Source of the DNA: Bacillota bacterium
GTDB taxonomy: Bacteria > Bacillota > Proteinivoracia > UBA4975 > VEMY01
NCBI GenBank assembly: GCA_009711825.1
Contig: VEMY01000040.1
Coordinates: 1 to 55,603, forward strand
Reading direction: 5' to 3'
Length of the DNA: 55,603 nt
Position 1 is the stretch's first letter; each line of letters starts with the position of its first letter. Positions 36,752 to 47,735 of the stretch are shown one piece after another. Position numbers and translations under genes: made by a program. The notes beneath the pieces are model-generated. The model made no database searches. It was given only the letters and a program-made list of their open reading frames with translations, and was not told the DNA's origin.

Positions 36752-36880
36752 ATGCTGTACGTTAAACAATGCAAATTGACCTTAACAGCCAGCTCCGTAC
36801 AACTATATACGATGAAGCGTTGTGTGGAGCTTAATCAGGGAACCCCGGGTTTCCAATATTCATCGGCTTATAGTCTGTAG
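36752..36880 (+). CDS. Leader peptide ORF (42 codons) upstream of ABC-F gene
   Basis: ATG 36752 lies 7 nt after GGAGGG. The peptide MLYVKQCKLTLTAS... ends SSAYSL at 36880. It is not similar to anything I recognise. Its place between a promoter and two terminators ahead of an ABC-F ribosomal-protection-type gene matches antibiotic-sensing leader ORFs, where ribosome stalling would prevent terminator formation. Evidence for translation is only the ribosome binding site and context. Confidence 0.55.
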   Translation: MLYVKQCKLTLTASSVQLYTMKRCVELNQGTPGFQYSSAYSL

Positions 36881-37069: not shown

Positions 37070-38629
37070 ATGAGCTTACTAGAGGTAAAAGATTTATCAC
37101 ATCGTTATGGAGATAAAATGCTATACAAAGATGCCGCCCTTGAGCTGTACAAAGGCGAACACATGGGCATGGTGGGACAGAACGGCGCAGGCAAAAGCAC
37201 TCTAATAAACATTCTGATTGGGGACGTGATCCCGGATAATGGGTCAGTCAAATGGCAGTCAGGCGTTAGGATAGGCCATTTGGACCAATATGCTGTAATC
37301 GATGGTGACATAACTGTATCCCAATACCTTCACTCAGCATTTGCAGATCTGTATGCCATCCAAAGAAAGTTGGACGCTGTCTATAAGGAGATTGCAGACA
37401 CCGGTGATGAGAGCCAGTTGCGCCAGGCGGCCATTTACCAGGAACAGCTTGAGAGCCGAGATTTCTACGCCATCGAGGGCAAGATCAACCAGGTTGTCCT
37501 TGGTCTTGGCATTGATGCAATTGGCGTTGAGCGACCGCTGCAAAAGCTAAGCGGCGGCCAACGGGCCAAGATTATCCTGGCCAAACTGCTGCTGGAAGCT
37601 CCCGATGTCCTGCTCTTGGATGAGCCGGTTAATTTCCTGGACAAAGAACATGTGGACTGGCTGGCCGAATTTTTAAAGTCCTTTAGTGGCGCTTTCATCG
37701 TCATTTCCCATGACCACGCCTTTCTCGAATCCGTCTGTACCTGCATCTGCGACATTGAGTTCACGACGATTAAAAAATACTGTGGCACCTATTCAGATTT
37801 CCAACGCCAAAAACAACATTTGCGCAAGGAATACATGCGTCAATATGCCGCCCAACAGAAAATGATCACCAGAACAGAAGACTATATCCGCAGGAACATC
37901 GCCGGCATAAAGAGTAAAAACGCCCGGGGGCGCCGCAAACAGCTGGATAGAATGGAACGCATTGCGCCGCCAAACTTTCAGCAAAAGCCAAGCATCAAAT
38001 TCCGAGAGCTGCCCATCGCCCCCCAGGCGGCGCTTAAAGTAAATAACCTTGAGGTCGGCTACAATTCCGCCCTGCTGCCGAAACTGAATTTCTCGGTGGC
38101 AGGTGGCAAGAAGCTGGTGATTACCGGCTTTAACGGTATAGGCAAATCTACGTTGCTGAAAACCCTGATTGACGAAATCCCGGCTATCTCGGGAGGCTTC
38201 AACTTCTCCCCGCAGGCAAAAGTCGGGTATAACGCCCAGGAATTGAGCTGGGCGAACCCGCAGATGACGCCGCTCCAGATTGTCCTCCACCAATACCCTG
38301 ACCTGACACAAAAGGAAATTCGCCGCCAGCTCGCCCAATGTGGCGTCAAAGATGACCATGTCACCCAGGCAATTTCCACCTTGAGCGGTGGAGAACAGAC
38401 AAAGGTAAAGCTCTGCCTCCTGCTTCTTACCCCCTTTAACTTCTTAATCCTCGACGAGCCAACCAACCACTTAGACCAGGAAGCGAAGCAAGCACTGCAA
38501 ACCGCCCTTGCCCAGTTTAGCGGCAGCGTCATCCTCGTTTGCCACGAGGAGTCGTTCTACAAATCCTGGGCAGACAACGCTTTGGATATTGCCGAATGCG
38601 TTAAAAACCCTGAAAGAATGTCCAGTTGA
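37070..38629 (+). CDS. ABC-F ribosomal-protection-type ATPase (CplR-like)
   Basis: Soluble duplicated ATPase of 519 aa. Domain 1: GQNGAGKS, LSGGQRAK, LLLDEPVNFLDKEH; linker with NIAGIKSKNARGRRKQLDRMERI between domains, the ARM-type region that reaches the ribosome; domain 2: GFNGIGKS, LSGGEQTK, LILDEPTNHLD. Overall pattern, length and the linker resemble clostridial CplR-type proteins that protect ribosomes from pleuromutilins, lincosamides and streptogramin A. Valine in DEPVN replaces the usual threonine. The leader with a small ORF and two terminators supports antibiotic-inducible expression. YkpA-like housekeeping ABC-F is the alternative. Confidence 0.88.
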   Translation: MSLLEVKDLSHRYGDKMLYKDAALELYKGEHMGMVGQNGAGKSTLINILIGDVIPDNGSVKWQSGVRIGHLDQYAVIDGDITVSQYLHSAFADLYAIQRKLDAVYKEIADTGDESQLRQAAIYQEQLESRDFYAIEGKINQVVLGLGIDAIGVERPLQKLSGGQRAKIILAKLLLEAPDVLLLDEPVNFLDKEHVDWLAEFLKSFSGAFIVISHDHAFLESVCTCICDIEFTTIKKYCGTYSDFQRQKQHLRKEYMRQYAAQQKMITRTEDYIRRNIAGIKSKNARGRRKQLDRMERIAPPNFQQKPSIKFRELPIAPQAALKVNNLEVGYNSALLPKLNFSVAGGKKLVITGFNGIGKSTLLKTLIDEIPAISGGFNFSPQAKVGYNAQELSWANPQMTPLQIVLHQYPDLTQKEIRRQLAQCGVKDDHVTQAISTLSGGEQTKVKLCLLLLTPFNFLILDEPTNHLDQEAKQALQTALAQFSGSVILVCHEESFYKSWADNALDIAECVKNPERMSS

Positions 38630-44180: not shown

Positions 44181-44477
44181 TTACATGTCTATAATGTATT
44201 GTCCTGATTCCTCATGAAGCTGCTTATAAACATCCCTTCGATGACTGATTTTAACGATAATCACAACACGCTCTTCATCCATAATCTCATAGATAATCCG
44301 GTAGCTTCCCTGCCGGAGACGATATCGCTCCTGGGTTGATAGTTTTTCACTGCCAGGCGGTCTCGGCTCAGATTTCAGCTTATCTATACGCCTGACAATG
44401 TGCTCCACATCTTTAACAGGAAGATTGCGCAGGTCCTTGGCAACAGATTTTTTAACCCGAAGCTCATAACTTGCCAT
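44181..44477 (-). CDS. RelE/ParE-family toxin
   Basis: A 98-aa basic protein with the RelE fold: KKSVAKDLRNLP, then RLRQGSYRIIYEIMDEERVVIIVKISHRRDVY. Conserved arginines and the terminal HRRDVY match the mRNA-interferase active site region. Its ATG overlaps the end of the antitoxin gene by 14 nt, so it is translated by coupling. Type II toxin-antitoxin module. Confidence 0.92.
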   Translation of the reverse strand: MASYELRVKKSVAKDLRNLPVKDVEHIVRRIDKLKSEPRPPGSEKLSTQERYRLRQGSYRIIYEIMDEERVVIIVKISHRRDVYKQLHEESGQYIIDM

Positions 44478-44700
44478 TTGCTTTCAGGTCTTCCAGGACT
44501 TCCTCGTAACTGATTGTTGGCTCGAGAACCCGTTCCTCAAACGCAGCCAAATCAGCCATATCTTCACGGAGCATATCCCTAACCGCGTTATTAACTAACT
44601 CTGACACCGAGCATTGAGTAGAAGCCGCTTTCAACCGAAGCGCCGCATGAATCTCCGGAGCAAAGTAGATTGTGGAACGCTTTACAGGTTTGCTCAACAT
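44464..44700 (-). CDS. Ribbon-helix-helix antitoxin
   Basis: A 78-aa CopG/RHH-like protein: RSTIYFAPEIHAALRLKAASTQCSVSELVNNAVRD is an RHH DNA-binding domain, followed by an acidic C-terminus (ISYEEVLEDLKA) that would wrap the toxin. TGAGGGGGGAT precedes the ATG at 44700. Autoregulation through the palindrome at 44730-44745 is expected. Confidence 0.9.
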   Translation of the reverse strand: MLSKPVKRSTIYFAPEIHAALRLKAASTQCSVSELVNNAVRDMLREDMADLAAFEERVLEPTISYEEVLEDLKANGKL

Positions 44701-44762: not shown

Positions 44763-44791
44763 TTGACAAGCATCACACATATCAGTATCAT
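44763..44791 (+). promoter_or_regulatory. Promoter of the structured-leader transcript
   Basis: TTGACA (44763-44768), exactly 17 bp, TATCAT (44786-44791). A start near 44798 gives a leader of about 245 nt before the lipoprotein gene. Confidence 0.85.
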
Positions 44792-44816
44792 GAAGACAAA
44801 CACAATACCTCGCTCC

Positions 44817-44979
44817 GAGTCTACATTTCTAAGGGAAACTATGAAACGTAGACCGATAGGGTATCGTTGGAAACGGCGCTGCCTCCCGGATTTGGAAAGG
44901 AGTCGTACATACAAGCCGCTTTGCTTCTTGCTAGTTACATGTATGTCAAGCGCAGACTCTGTTCCAGGGTCTGATTTTT
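44817..44979 (+). ncRNA. Riboswitch-like structured leader with terminator (class unassigned)
   Basis: Visible helices: GTCTAC/GTAGAC extended by TTTC/GAAA (44819-44853), CGATA/TATCG (44854-44866), CTCC/GGAG around GGAAAGGAG (44884-44902), ACATACA/TGTATGT (44907-44946) and GGCGCT/AGCGC(T) (44875-44953). A rho-independent terminator CAGACTCT/AGGGTCTG plus ATTTTTG lies at 44953-44979. Its arm AGACTC can instead pair with GAGTCT at 44817-44822, giving mutually exclusive forms. The CCTCC...GGAAAGGAG core is reminiscent of the Moco/Tuco motif, and the downstream protein has a molybdopterin-oxidoreductase-like fold, but I cannot confirm the class. Confidence 0.6.
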
Positions 44980-45043: not shown

Positions 45044-46168
45044 ATGAAACTAACTAGTAAGTGGGCTCTGTTGACGATTGTCCTTGTCCTTACACTCGGC
45101 CTAGCAGCCTGCGGAGGCACTGGCGGGGAAGTGCCCGGCGACGATTATACTAGCGAGGACAATGTAGTCGTCATCGAATGCGAGGAAGCCGGAGAAATTG
45201 AGCTGTCTGTAGCAGACTTCATGGACCTTGAAGCTGTATCCGAAGAGATCGTCCGCCTGGACGATAATGGTGATGTTGAAGAGCAGTACTCAATCAAAGG
45301 AGTCCTATTGGAAACTGTACTGGCTCACCTGGAAATCGGTATTGGTGACCTGGGTACCGTGCGTTTTACCGCCGGCGATGGTTACTCAGTTGAAGTCCCC
45401 AATAATATAGTCGCTGGTGGCAAGATTATCCTTGCCTACGAGATTGATGGAGAACCCTTGCACGAAAACACCGGCCCAATTCGGATCTTTATACCCGACG
45501 AAGAAAGTATGTACTGGGTGCGGAACACTGTGAAAATAAATCTCAACCGGGGCGAGTCCGGCGGCAGCCAGGATCCTAGCGGGGAAATCGGCGTATTGGA
45601 GCAAATAATTTTCTTTGAAACCCTGCTCCCAGAATTGGAAGTACTTGACTATATCGCTGAAGCCGATGCAAAGGCTGTTAAAACAGAAGCGGTGTTTGCA
45701 GATGTACAAGCTGGTAGTCTCGTCCAAATGCTGGCCAGTGACGGATTCGAGAAAAACGAGGAATTTGCTACAGCCATCGAACAATATGTTGTTGTTGAAG
45801 GCGAAAACACCCCTGCCTTCCGGGGCCCTGACCTTCCCCGGGGCATGCATGTCCGTGACTTAGTATGGATGGGCAGTGGCGACACAGGATTCCTCTTTGT
45901 CAAAAACGGACTGGAATACTTCGATGAGGCAGAAGTCGATGGCGACAAAGGTATAAGCTTAAAGGACATTGCGGATAAGTTCAGCCTTAAGGAAGCCGAC
46001 ACCTATATCCTCGAGTCTGATGATGGTTATAGTGTCGAGATAAGCTATGAAGAACTGGAAGCAGGAATCGTCTTTTTCCGGGACAGTGGCGAAATATCTT
46101 CAGCCTTTGAGGGTCTTCCCAAAAATACAGCGGTAAAAGGCCTGTTGTCAATCCGCGTTGCAGACTAA
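45044..46168 (+). CDS. Lipoprotein with tandem degenerate sulfite-oxidase-like domains
   Basis: A 374-aa secreted lipoprotein (signal to the lipobox GLAACGG, cysteine near residue 23). Residues about 40-170 follow the oxidoreductase molybdopterin-binding fold: KGVLLETVL, AGDGYSVEVP, LAYEIDGEPLHENTGPIRIFIP, WVRNTVKI. The usual cysteine ligand to molybdenum is not visible. A second half (about 185-374) shows similar elements (GISLKDIADKF, ESDDGYSVEISYEEL). Acts outside the membrane; function unknown. Preceded by a riboswitch-like leader, followed 32 bp later by the phosphodiesterase gene. Confidence 0.82.
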   Translation: MKLTSKWALLTIVLVLTLGLAACGGTGGEVPGDDYTSEDNVVVIECEEAGEIELSVADFMDLEAVSEEIVRLDDNGDVEEQYSIKGVLLETVLAHLEIGIGDLGTVRFTAGDGYSVEVPNNIVAGGKIILAYEIDGEPLHENTGPIRIFIPDEESMYWVRNTVKINLNRGESGGSQDPSGEIGVLEQIIFFETLLPELEVLDYIAEADAKAVKTEAVFADVQAGSLVQMLASDGFEKNEEFATAIEQYVVVEGENTPAFRGPDLPRGMHVRDLVWMGSGDTGFLFVKNGLEYFDEAEVDGDKGISLKDIADKFSLKEADTYILESDDGYSVEISYEELEAGIVFFRDSGEISSAFEGLPKNTAVKGLLSIRVAD

Positions 46169-46200: not shown

Positions 46201-47700
46201 ATGTGTGCATTGAATTGCAGGATATTACTATCTAAGCTTCTAATTTTCTCCCTACTGGGAATGACCCTGGGTGCGCTGCTTCTGGGCTGTGATACAGAAA
46301 CCGAGTTTTCCTCCGGGCTCCCCCTGGAAGTCCTGGGTGATGTAGAAAGCCCACTCAGCATTAACAGTTTGAGTGAAGCGCCAGATACCCTGAAGCTAGA
46401 TTACCGGGAGCAAACGATTGAGGTGACCCCCCTGGAGCAACTCGTTCTTGAGGCTGAACCCCATGGGCAAGAATTTGAAATCCTCTTTACTGCCCATGAT
46501 GGATTCAGCGTCCTAATTAGCAATGATAACATCTCGGAAAGCTACTTGGCCTTAAATAAAGAAAATGGCTGGGAGGCGATTAATCTCAACCATCCGGTAA
46601 GCAGCAATATCAAGAACATCAAGGAGATTGTTATCGTCTCCCATGATTTGCCCATAAACAGTCAATTTCACATCATTGAACCCGGGAGAAATATCTCAAG
46701 CCTCTCGGTGGGTGAACTGTATAAGAACGGATACACAGTAATCCCCAGCGAGCGTGGAACAGCGTCCGTGGATTATGAGGGTGAAGAACTACTGGCCACA
46801 TCCTTCTACCGGCGCAAAGTAATAGATATCGAAAGCTATGTCAACCTGGCCGGCCGCGATTCCATCGCTGTTGTCGGCGAAAAGGGAGAAATGGAGCCAT
46901 TGCGCCAGGACGGGAGCTTCGTCCTAAACAAGAACAGCCTCGATTACATGGTTGGTAGTGAGGTTATCATCTCCCGGACCATTGGGATTGTCCTCAATCC
47001 TCCCGACAGAGTTATCACCAGTGTCTATCAAGATGCCAAAGACTCTCTTGACCAAGGAGTACCGATTCTTGTGATTATGGTTGACGGGCTTGGCCATCAT
47101 CAATATCAGTATGCCAGTGGACTTGGCTACACTCCCTTCCTAGACACATTGCCGAAACCGGAAATTGCGATGTCCGCATATCCTTCAGTTACCCCGGTTA
47201 ACATGGCGGCCTCGCTGAGCGGTGAATTGCCAGATGTCAATGGCGTTTATAGGAGAGGCATCAGGCAGTTGAAAGTGCCAACGATATTTGCCTACTCTAA
47301 CGAGCAAGGGAAGTCTTCTTCCGCAGTTATTGGCCCAATCGGCACAATTGAGTTGGAGATTGGCCCGATCTACTCGGTGGACCGGAACGAAGACGGCAGC
47401 ACTGACGATGATAAGACGGTAAACGCACTGGAAATTATCGCTGACGGACACGATTTTCTGTACGTCCACTTCAAAGACGTGGACAGCACCGGTCATGAGT
47501 ACGGTGACCTCCATGAAAATACCCTTGAGGCCATTCGAGGCAATGATGAGTACATCCAGCAGCTGGTCAGCAACTGGCAAGGCAGGGTTCTCATCTACTC
47601 TGACCACGGGATGTATGCGACAAAAACCGGAGGCGACCACGGGGCCCTGGTCACCGAGAGCATGTTCACCCCTTACTGGCTGTTTGACACAGACAAATAA
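46201..47700 (+). CDS. Alkaline-phosphatase-superfamily phosphodiesterase lipoprotein with SUOX-like N-terminal region
   Basis: A 499-aa lipoprotein (lipobox LLLGCDT near residue 30). The N-terminal ~250 residues echo the neighbour's degenerate domain (TPLEQLVLEAEP, TAHDGFSVLIS). The C-terminal catalytic domain is of the nucleotide pyrophosphatase/phosphodiesterase type: metal ligand VIMVDGLGHHQ, nucleophile threonine in SVTPVN, FKDVDSTGHEYGD, YSDHGMYAT and GGDHGAL. Probably cleaves a phosphodiester or phosphonate outside the cell. ATG 46201 follows AGGGGGCA. Same operon as the lipoprotein. Confidence 0.87.
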   Translation: MCALNCRILLSKLLIFSLLGMTLGALLLGCDTETEFSSGLPLEVLGDVESPLSINSLSEAPDTLKLDYREQTIEVTPLEQLVLEAEPHGQEFEILFTAHDGFSVLISNDNISESYLALNKENGWEAINLNHPVSSNIKNIKEIVIVSHDLPINSQFHIIEPGRNISSLSVGELYKNGYTVIPSERGTASVDYEGEELLATSFYRRKVIDIESYVNLAGRDSIAVVGEKGEMEPLRQDGSFVLNKNSLDYMVGSEVIISRTIGIVLNPPDRVITSVYQDAKDSLDQGVPILVIMVDGLGHHQYQYASGLGYTPFLDTLPKPEIAMSAYPSVTPVNMAASLSGELPDVNGVYRRGIRQLKVPTIFAYSNEQGKSSSAVIGPIGTIELEIGPIYSVDRNEDGSTDDDKTVNALEIIADGHDFLYVHFKDVDSTGHEYGDLHENTLEAIRGNDEYIQQLVSNWQGRVLIYSDHGMYATKTGGDHGALVTESMFTPYWLFDTDK

Positions 47701-47704
47701 TTTA

Positions 47705-47735
47705 AAAGACCTGAAGGGCACACCTTCAGGTCTTT
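47705..47735 (+). terminator. Terminator of the lipoprotein/phosphodiesterase operon
   Basis: Perfect 13-bp stem AAAGACCTGAAGG / CCTTCAGGTCTTT with a 5-nt loop. Confidence 0.9.

Follow-up and report, generated by a model that had tools for sequence, protein, structure and literature searches.

The leader with its aptamer at positions 44801–44918 of the window, by which we mean the whole stretch of 55,603 nucleotides that was analysed (contig VEMY01000040.1), is a Moco riboswitch of family RF01055, and this identity is well supported. On its sequence features it is assigned to the P3-less Tuco subtype, which is thought to sense the tungsten cofactor. It precedes two lipoprotein genes, LPmoA and LPpde (Table 1), and the two lipoproteins, under this predicted P3-less OFF riboswitch, probably form the surface part of a tungstopterin or molybdopterin salvage system in which import would be ensured by an ECF transporter. 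Judging from gene order, membership of the two lipoproteins in the ECF operon is well supported by conservation; we infer which way transport runs, precisely which molecule is carried and what each protein does.

Table 1. Features of the riboswitch-lipoprotein unit of the window
Feature	Position	Strand	Basis
Sigma-70-type promoter TTGACA-17-TATCAT, predicted driver of the leader	44763–44791	+	Consensus match only
Moco/Tuco riboswitch aptamer RF01055, P3-less (Tuco subtype)	44801–44918	+	72 bits, GA 36; covariation
P1 3' strand GGAGUC, predicted antiterminator (partner: terminator 5' arm GACUCU, 44955–44960)	44899–44904	+	Fold energies
Intrinsic terminator, predicted riboswitch expression platform	44953–44979	+	Hairpin search and fold energy
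LPmoA, 374-aa lipoprotein, PF00174, without Mo-ligand Cys, PruR-like	45044–46168	+	Lipobox LAAC
LPpde, 499-aa lipoprotein, PF00174-like N-terminal region and nucleotide pyrophosphatase/phosphodiesterase domain	46201–47700	+	Lipobox LLGC
13-bp inverted repeat just 3' of LPpde	47705–47735	+	Inverted repeat found in sequence

Identity and predicted switching of the leader

The whole window was screened with cmscan, and RF01055 was matched with 72 bits (E 1.7e-15, cut-off 36), the match covering the model end to end (1–135). A preliminary description of this DNA, made from the letters alone, had noted that the CCTCC core of the leader recalls Moco/Tuco RNAs and had proposed a search with RF01055: CCTCC...GGAAAGGAG is indeed the core of this family in the leader, and the conserved aptamer core extends from 44811 to 44904. 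The same description had regarded the leader as an orphan and possibly as a new riboswitch class, which is ruled out by the RF01055 match, as the leader belongs to a known family.

The cmscan alignment delineated helices P1, P2 with its receptor bulge and a small cap, P4 and P5, in agreement with the nested helices that had been noticed beforehand. It placed a GAAA tetraloop in P4 (GGAAAC loop) and a CUAAG/UAUG receptor bulge in P2, and no P3 was found between P2 and P4 in the window leader, where the linker is 4–5 nt long. Covariation, the second check that had been proposed, was observed in two sets of homologous leaders. First, in the nine leaders of the window's order, 20 of the 32 pairs had changed on both sides, and none of 500 shuffles was as good. 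Second, 62 leaders, collected with a model built from these nine, gave 502 two-sided cells versus 169 expected and 26 two-sided pairs out of 32, in an alignment fitted to the structure model. P3 was absent from all 62 related leaders, their P2–P4 linker being 2–7 nt. The Rfam model itself returned RF01055 at all 17 loci rechecked (16 riboswitch-bearing S-component loci and L131).

In the available text of Regulski et al. (2008; PMC2408646), the class is split into P3-bearing (Moco) and P3-lacking (Tuco) RNAs, and 17 of the 19 organisms with P3-lacking RNAs have genes indicative of Tuco metabolism; Tuco sensing by P3-less RNAs stands there as a correlation and not as direct binding. The host of the window carries four AOR-type genes (see below) and therefore fits the expectation for the Tuco subtype.

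The predicted promoter matches 11 of the 12 consensus positions, and the 451-base region contains two promoter-like sites versus 0.5 in shuffles. The leader is about 245 nt long and ends at the ATG at 45044, so that the initial reading of a consensus promoter followed by a leader of this length was correct. The terminator hairpin (44953–44973) is composed of CAGACTCTG-TTC-CAGGGTCTG, followed by the U-run ATTTTTGTTT, and has an energy of -12.3 kcal/mol. In the unconstrained fold of the leader (-56.3 kcal/mol), the P1 3' strand pairs with the 5' arm of this terminator. Enforcing the aptamer gave -52.0 kcal/mol, a cost of about 4 kcal/mol, and freed the terminator. It had been suggested that the terminator arm can pair with the 5' end of the leader; this pairing (with 44817–44822) is possible, but it reached only -41.9 kcal/mol, 14 kcal/mol worse than pairing with the P1 3' strand, and antitermination via the 5' part was not retained. 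Of 71 related riboswitches, 60 were followed by a terminator-like hairpin at a distance of at most 160 nt, versus 21 upstream control regions.

From these folds the leader is predicted to be an OFF switch at the level of transcription. When tungsten cofactor is plentiful, aptamer P1 would close, the terminator would form and transcription would stop; when the cofactor is scarce, the P1 3' strand would capture the terminator arm and the lipoprotein genes would be expressed. The inverted repeat downstream of LPpde is likely to be a bidirectional terminator closing the two-gene unit.

Two other observations were made in the window. A ParE/RelE-like toxin (PF05016) and a ribbon-helix-helix antitoxin are encoded on the minus strand at 44181–44700, divergent from the riboswitch promoter. 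A uup RNA motif (RF03060, 45.6 bits, cut-off 36.8) lies at 36783–36830, and 240 bases 3' of it begins an ABC-ATPase ORF (37070–38629) with a match to an ECF ATPase profile.

The two lipoproteins

Both downstream genes encode surface lipoproteins, as first described. In LPmoA, Pfam scores a single PF00174 stretch (residues 84–173), and by eye the C-terminal half looks like a diverged repeat. The AlphaFold2 model (pLDDT 86) is best matched by PruR proteins (7kom, TM 0.78 on target, then 7kp2, 7kos and 7rkb), and sulfite oxidases come next. A Mo-ligand cysteine was sought in 25 LPmoA homologues, and the sole conserved cysteine column was that of the lipobox; the molybdopterin-oxidoreductase-like fold without metal-ligand cysteine that had been put forward for this protein is thereby borne out. 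PruR is a SUOX-fold protein without a Mo-ligand cysteine that has been shown in experiments to bind reduced pterins, and its pocket is reported to be too short for full Moco (PMC13259868). In A. tumefaciens PruR the pterin-contacting residues are Tyr104 and Trp160; LPmoA Y114, conserved in 25 of 25 homologues, and W158, conserved in 24 of 25, are only putative counterparts of these. LPmoA is predicted, on its modelled fold, to be a PruR-like pterin-binding surface protein.

Regulski et al. suggested, in the available text, that enzymes are regulated by their own cofactor in the case of two P3-less RNAs of Syntrophomonas wolfei (PMC2408646). LPmoA and LPpde could similarly be sulfite-oxidase-type Mo/W enzymes under the control of their own cofactor, a reading in line with the PF00174 similarity and with the S. 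wolfei 'sulphite oxidase' genes found behind P3-less RNAs in that text. However, it is the least probable of those considered here: the 25 LPmoA homologues have no conserved cysteine but that of the lipobox, the nearest fold is the Cys-less PruR, the linkage to an ECF importer is constant (see below), and a cofactor-requiring enzyme is not expected to be shut off by that cofactor. A sulfite-oxidase-like enzyme was rejected for want of the ligand cysteine.

It is also very improbable that the PruR-like lipoproteins sense external pterins and that the operon is a signalling system instead of an importer. PruR-DcpA in Agrobacterium does use the same fold (PMC13259868), but no GGDEF/EAL or sensor-kinase partner was found beside the lipoproteins in the window, and the operon includes complete ECF ATPase/T modules, a Tuco-type riboswitch and MobB. 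The DcpA/DTB regulator that is the operon partner of PruR is absent, the gene 3' of LPmoA being LPpde, whose relatives lie in ECF operons.

The PF00174-like N-terminal region of LPpde was recognized by sequence inspection and is not a Pfam match. Its C-terminal domain belongs to the alkaline-phosphatase superfamily and is close to Xac NPP (2gsn) and to ENPP1. The threonine nucleophile and the six metal ligands of the NPP family are all present: D295, T331, D428, D468, H469 and H480 were found in all 26 homologues, and H432 in 22 of them. An extracellular LPpde pyrophosphatase would fit the trimming of dinucleotide forms of the cofactor.

A conserved ECF operon

The second RF01055 element of the same genome heads an ECF operon on another contig (C5). 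The gene row is ECF S component (PF09819), a PF00174 membrane-anchored protein, EcfA, EcfA', EcfT (PF02361) and MobB, and thus comprises a full ECF set of S, T and two A components. The best NCBIfam model for the C5 ABC ATPases was ECF_ATPase_1, below the curated cut-off, and a sequence comparison of the S component with the PDB returned no solved relative even at E 1. The C5 system would import a specific micronutrient, the nature of which we infer from the genomic context.

P3-less riboswitches were present in seven of the eight genomes of the order, with nine RF01055 matches. Each of the nine heads either the lipoprotein pair (in the window and in genome G002) or an ECF operon of this kind, and no moa gene was found behind any of them. 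A scan of GTDB genomes with an S-component alignment yielded 80 named loci (numbered with L), which span Clostridia (Alkaliphilus, Syntrophomonas, Sedimentibacter, Pelotomaculum and others), Dehalococcoidia and other Chloroflexota, and Heimdallarchaeota. Most of these loci carry LPmoA, ECF-S, LPpde, PruR-like, EcfA, EcfA', EcfT and MobB in one operon: among the 44 with complete flanks, EcfT was found in 42, EcfA in 40, PruR-like in 39, MobB in 36, LPpde in 29 and LPmoA in 26. Of 74 loci, 46 were preceded on the same strand by a P3-less riboswitch, and many of the others are cut by contig ends.

The conserved order is riboswitch, (FMN_bind), PruR-like lipoprotein, ECF S, PruR-like/nucleotide-pyrophosphatase lipoprotein, anchored PruR-like protein, EcfA, EcfA', EcfT, MobB and (small kinase). 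In G011, a complete one-contig genome of the window's class, the row reads riboswitch, LPmoA, ECF-S, LPpde, PruR-like, EcfA, EcfA', EcfT, MobB and kinase, with one riboswitch and no FMN_bind gene. In the genome of the window the operon is in two parts, both of which begin with a P3-less riboswitch of their own; since the whole row is intact in G011, the window holds one half of a split operon. The first interpretation of this DNA had thus been right about the likeness to Moco/Tuco RNAs and wrong about novelty, and it did not include the link to an ECF importer, to MobB and to missing MPT biosynthesis.

The Pfam family of the S component, PF09819, is named 'ABC-type cobalt transport system, permease component', and elsewhere Moco riboswitches control molybdate transporters (available text of PMC2408646); the ECF transporter could then import tungstate or molybdate, with the PF00174 proteins as metal- or cofactor-related accessories. 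This is improbable, as an importer of a bare oxyanion would have no use for three or four PruR-like modules of pterin fold, an NPP domain, MobB and a kinase, and tungstate uptake would leave unexplained the AOR-bearing genomes that lack MoaA and MoaC (see below). We know of no ECF oxyanion importer.

Additional genes were observed at some loci. A FMN_bind (PF04205) surface protein is encoded first after the riboswitch in many operons (L030:8311–8856, L101:8364–8885 and others), which suggests an extracellular flavin redox step. A small APH/Bud32-like kinase gene after MobB is linked to the operon in 45 loci (L040:3820, L042:15422, L101:15429 and others), and this kinase possibly rephosphorylates the imported pterin. 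Neither gene was found in the stretches read around the lipoprotein pair and the ECF operon of the window's genome, and in the window's order no gene for the small kinase was found close to the operon.

Variations in riboswitch arrangement were also noted. At L063:4563–9373, L066:14391–19128 and L095:14363–19142, P3-less Moco riboswitches are directly 5' of 1500-aa surface proteins, which are SLH-like at the C-terminus and contain between one and three PruR-like (PF00174) domains; giant proteins resembling these, at the Syntrophomonas loci L064 and L075, may account for the 'sulphite oxidase' exceptions of Regulski et al. (2008). Three tandem P3-less Moco riboswitches precede the ECF S component at L045:8202–8644, resembling the arrangement reported for Syntrophomonas wolfei, and tandem pairs occur at L040 (3436, 3600) and L041. 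Three Heimdallarchaeota loci (L098–L100) contain MobB-PruR-like-ECF S clusters, with EcfT also in L099 and L100, and the bacterial model detected no riboswitch 5' of these Asgard clusters. A second P3-less Moco riboswitch at L042:18666–18765 (minus strand) is 5' of a divergent, unclassified gene row including an ABC ATPase, which could be a tungstate/molybdate ABC transporter. Finally, a related genome has a purine riboswitch (RF00167, 84.7 bits) near its ECF operon, at L022:860–961.

Tungsten enzymes, proposed cofactor salvage and related systems

The genome of the window, which is 99.76% complete, has four genes for tungstopterin oxidoreductases of the aldehyde:ferredoxin-oxidoreductase (AOR) type. 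One of the four AOR genes adjoins that of the tungsten-cofactor radical SAM maturase W_rSAM_matur (TIGR04317, slightly below cut-off) as well as a MoaD-like and a MoeB/ThiF-like gene. MoaA and MoaC are the starters of molybdopterin synthesis. Profile searches of this nearly complete draft genome gave no match to the MoaA C-terminal domain or to MoaC; the same searches were positive for 11 of the 14 genomes used as controls.

Within the window's class, no genome carries both the S component and MoaA: the S component occurs without MoaA in eight genomes and MoaA without the S component in four, and one genome (G006, from the window's order) has neither. AOR domains are present both in G011, which has the S component and no MoaA, and in its complete congener G012, where the reverse is true. 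Among the 50 named S-component genomes, 19 had no MoaA match, and 17 of these 19 have AOR domains; among them is the complete genome of an isolate, Clostridiaceae bacterium M8S5 (CP118523.1; L101, G062). The other 31 were also positive for MoaA (two by weak matches only); salvage is therefore not obligatory, and the system is supplementary in carriers that keep MoaA.

An even draw of Clostridia provided 54 AOR-positive and 20 AOR-negative genomes, and MoaA was present in 50 of the 54. The S component was found in 14 of the 54 AOR-positive versus none of the 20 AOR-negative genomes (Fisher p 0.008, kinship ignored). MoaA was missing in 19 of 50 genomes with the S component versus 3 of 40 AOR-positive Clostridia without it (Fisher p 0.001, kinship ignored, losses being inflated by incomplete assemblies). 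The samples in these Fisher tests are related genomes, non-independent, and many are MAGs.

In the salvage system that we propose, LPmoA (PF00174, PruR type, no catalytic Cys) would capture, on the outer side of the membrane, the pterin cofactor or a compound derived from it, and the nucleotide-pyrophosphatase domain of LPpde would trim it, e.g. when it is MGD or another dinucleotide form. The ECF transporter encoded on C5, under the second riboswitch of the same type, would import the trimmed cofactor, which MobB, together with the small kinase in other taxa, would process inside the cell; the cofactor would end in AOR-type tungsten enzymes.

The strongest competing reading has a smaller pterin or a precursor as substrate (cPMP, a reduced monapterin-like pterin, or dephospho or degraded molybdopterin), captured and trimmed by the lipoproteins and imported by the ECF transporter. 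It owes this rank to PruR, whose type of domain binds small reduced pterins and whose pocket is reported not to be long enough for Moco (PMC13259868); the ligand could therefore be a smaller pterin or a demetallated or dephosphorylated form. The MoaD-like and MoeB/ThiF-like genes beside AOR make import of cPMP possible, as later steps may be intact, and import of a dephosphorylated species fits the small kinase gene that follows MobB in many operons. We nevertheless consider a precursor unlikely, as the cofactor-sensing riboswitch, MobB and the pyrophosphatase domain point to a finished or nucleotide-bearing cofactor. The readings as a tungstate importer, as enzymes or as signalling alone agree less well with the data. 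Returning to the cofactor itself, the broader proposal of an uptake pathway for finished molybdopterin/tungstopterin in bacteria and Asgard archaea, consisting of PruR-like capture, pyrophosphatase, a new S-component family, MobB, kinase and Tuco-riboswitch feedback, is tentative, and we put its chances slightly below even.

If cofactor salvage is correct, a family of ECF importers that take up the cofactor or its pterin would be spread over anaerobic Clostridia, Chloroflexi and part of the Asgard archaea. Those carriers in which tungsten enzymes are encoded but the first step of cofactor synthesis was not detected would depend on their neighbours, and a 'non-vitamin' cofactor would be a vitamin exchanged between microbes. 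Cys-less SUOX-fold surface proteins would acquire a physiological role, and the 'sulphite oxidase' genes that misfit the Tuco correlation in the available text of Regulski et al. (2008; PMC2408646) would be explained.

Compared with the Moco RNA and its Tuco variant (PMC2408646), the leader has the same sequence core, P1, P2, P4 and P5 helices, GAAA tetraloop and P2 receptor bulge, and it shares the absence of P3 and the terminator expression platform with the variant. The targets recorded in the available text of that work are MPT biosynthesis, molybdate transport and Mo/W enzymes, whereas an ECF importer and PruR-like surface proteins, the targets in the present system, are not named in it. 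PruR of Agrobacterium and Vibrio (PDB 7kos, 7kom, 7rkb; PMC13259868) is periplasmic and shares the Cys-less SUOX fold with LPmoA; it is small and partnered with DcpA c-di-GMP signalling in Proteobacteria, whereas the PruR-like proteins described here are larger or fused lipoproteins of ECF operons in Clostridia-like bacteria, Chloroflexi and Asgard archaea. Xac NPP (2gsn) and ENPP1 share with LPpde the fold and the metal-binding and nucleophile residues, but LPpde differs by its fusion to a PF00174-like region on a lipoprotein and by a glycine, in most homologues, in place of the phosphate-site asparagine.

Moco and Tuco are regarded as too unstable to be vitamins, and their route across membranes is unresolved (PMC9793310). 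The transfer of dietary Moco from bacteria to C. elegans (PMC9793310) resembles the present proposal in that external Moco supports the Moco enzymes of an organism; it differs in that the recipient is an animal and no homologous transporter has been proposed. In the open-access literature searched, we found no importer, ECF or other, of Moco, Tuco, molybdopterin or pterin, and the gene set is apparently undescribed there as a Moco/Tuco importer; what is new is the predicted substrate and the surface accessories. Control of a vitamin importer by a cofactor riboswitch is an established pattern for thiamine, with the TPP riboswitch. The thiamine-related ECF transporter YkoE (ykoFEDC; PMC5037267) has the same group I layout as the C5 operon, with S, T and A genes together; unlike YkoE, the C5-type system has PruR-like, NPP, MobB and kinase accessories and is preceded by a Moco/Tuco riboswitch instead of a TPP riboswitch.
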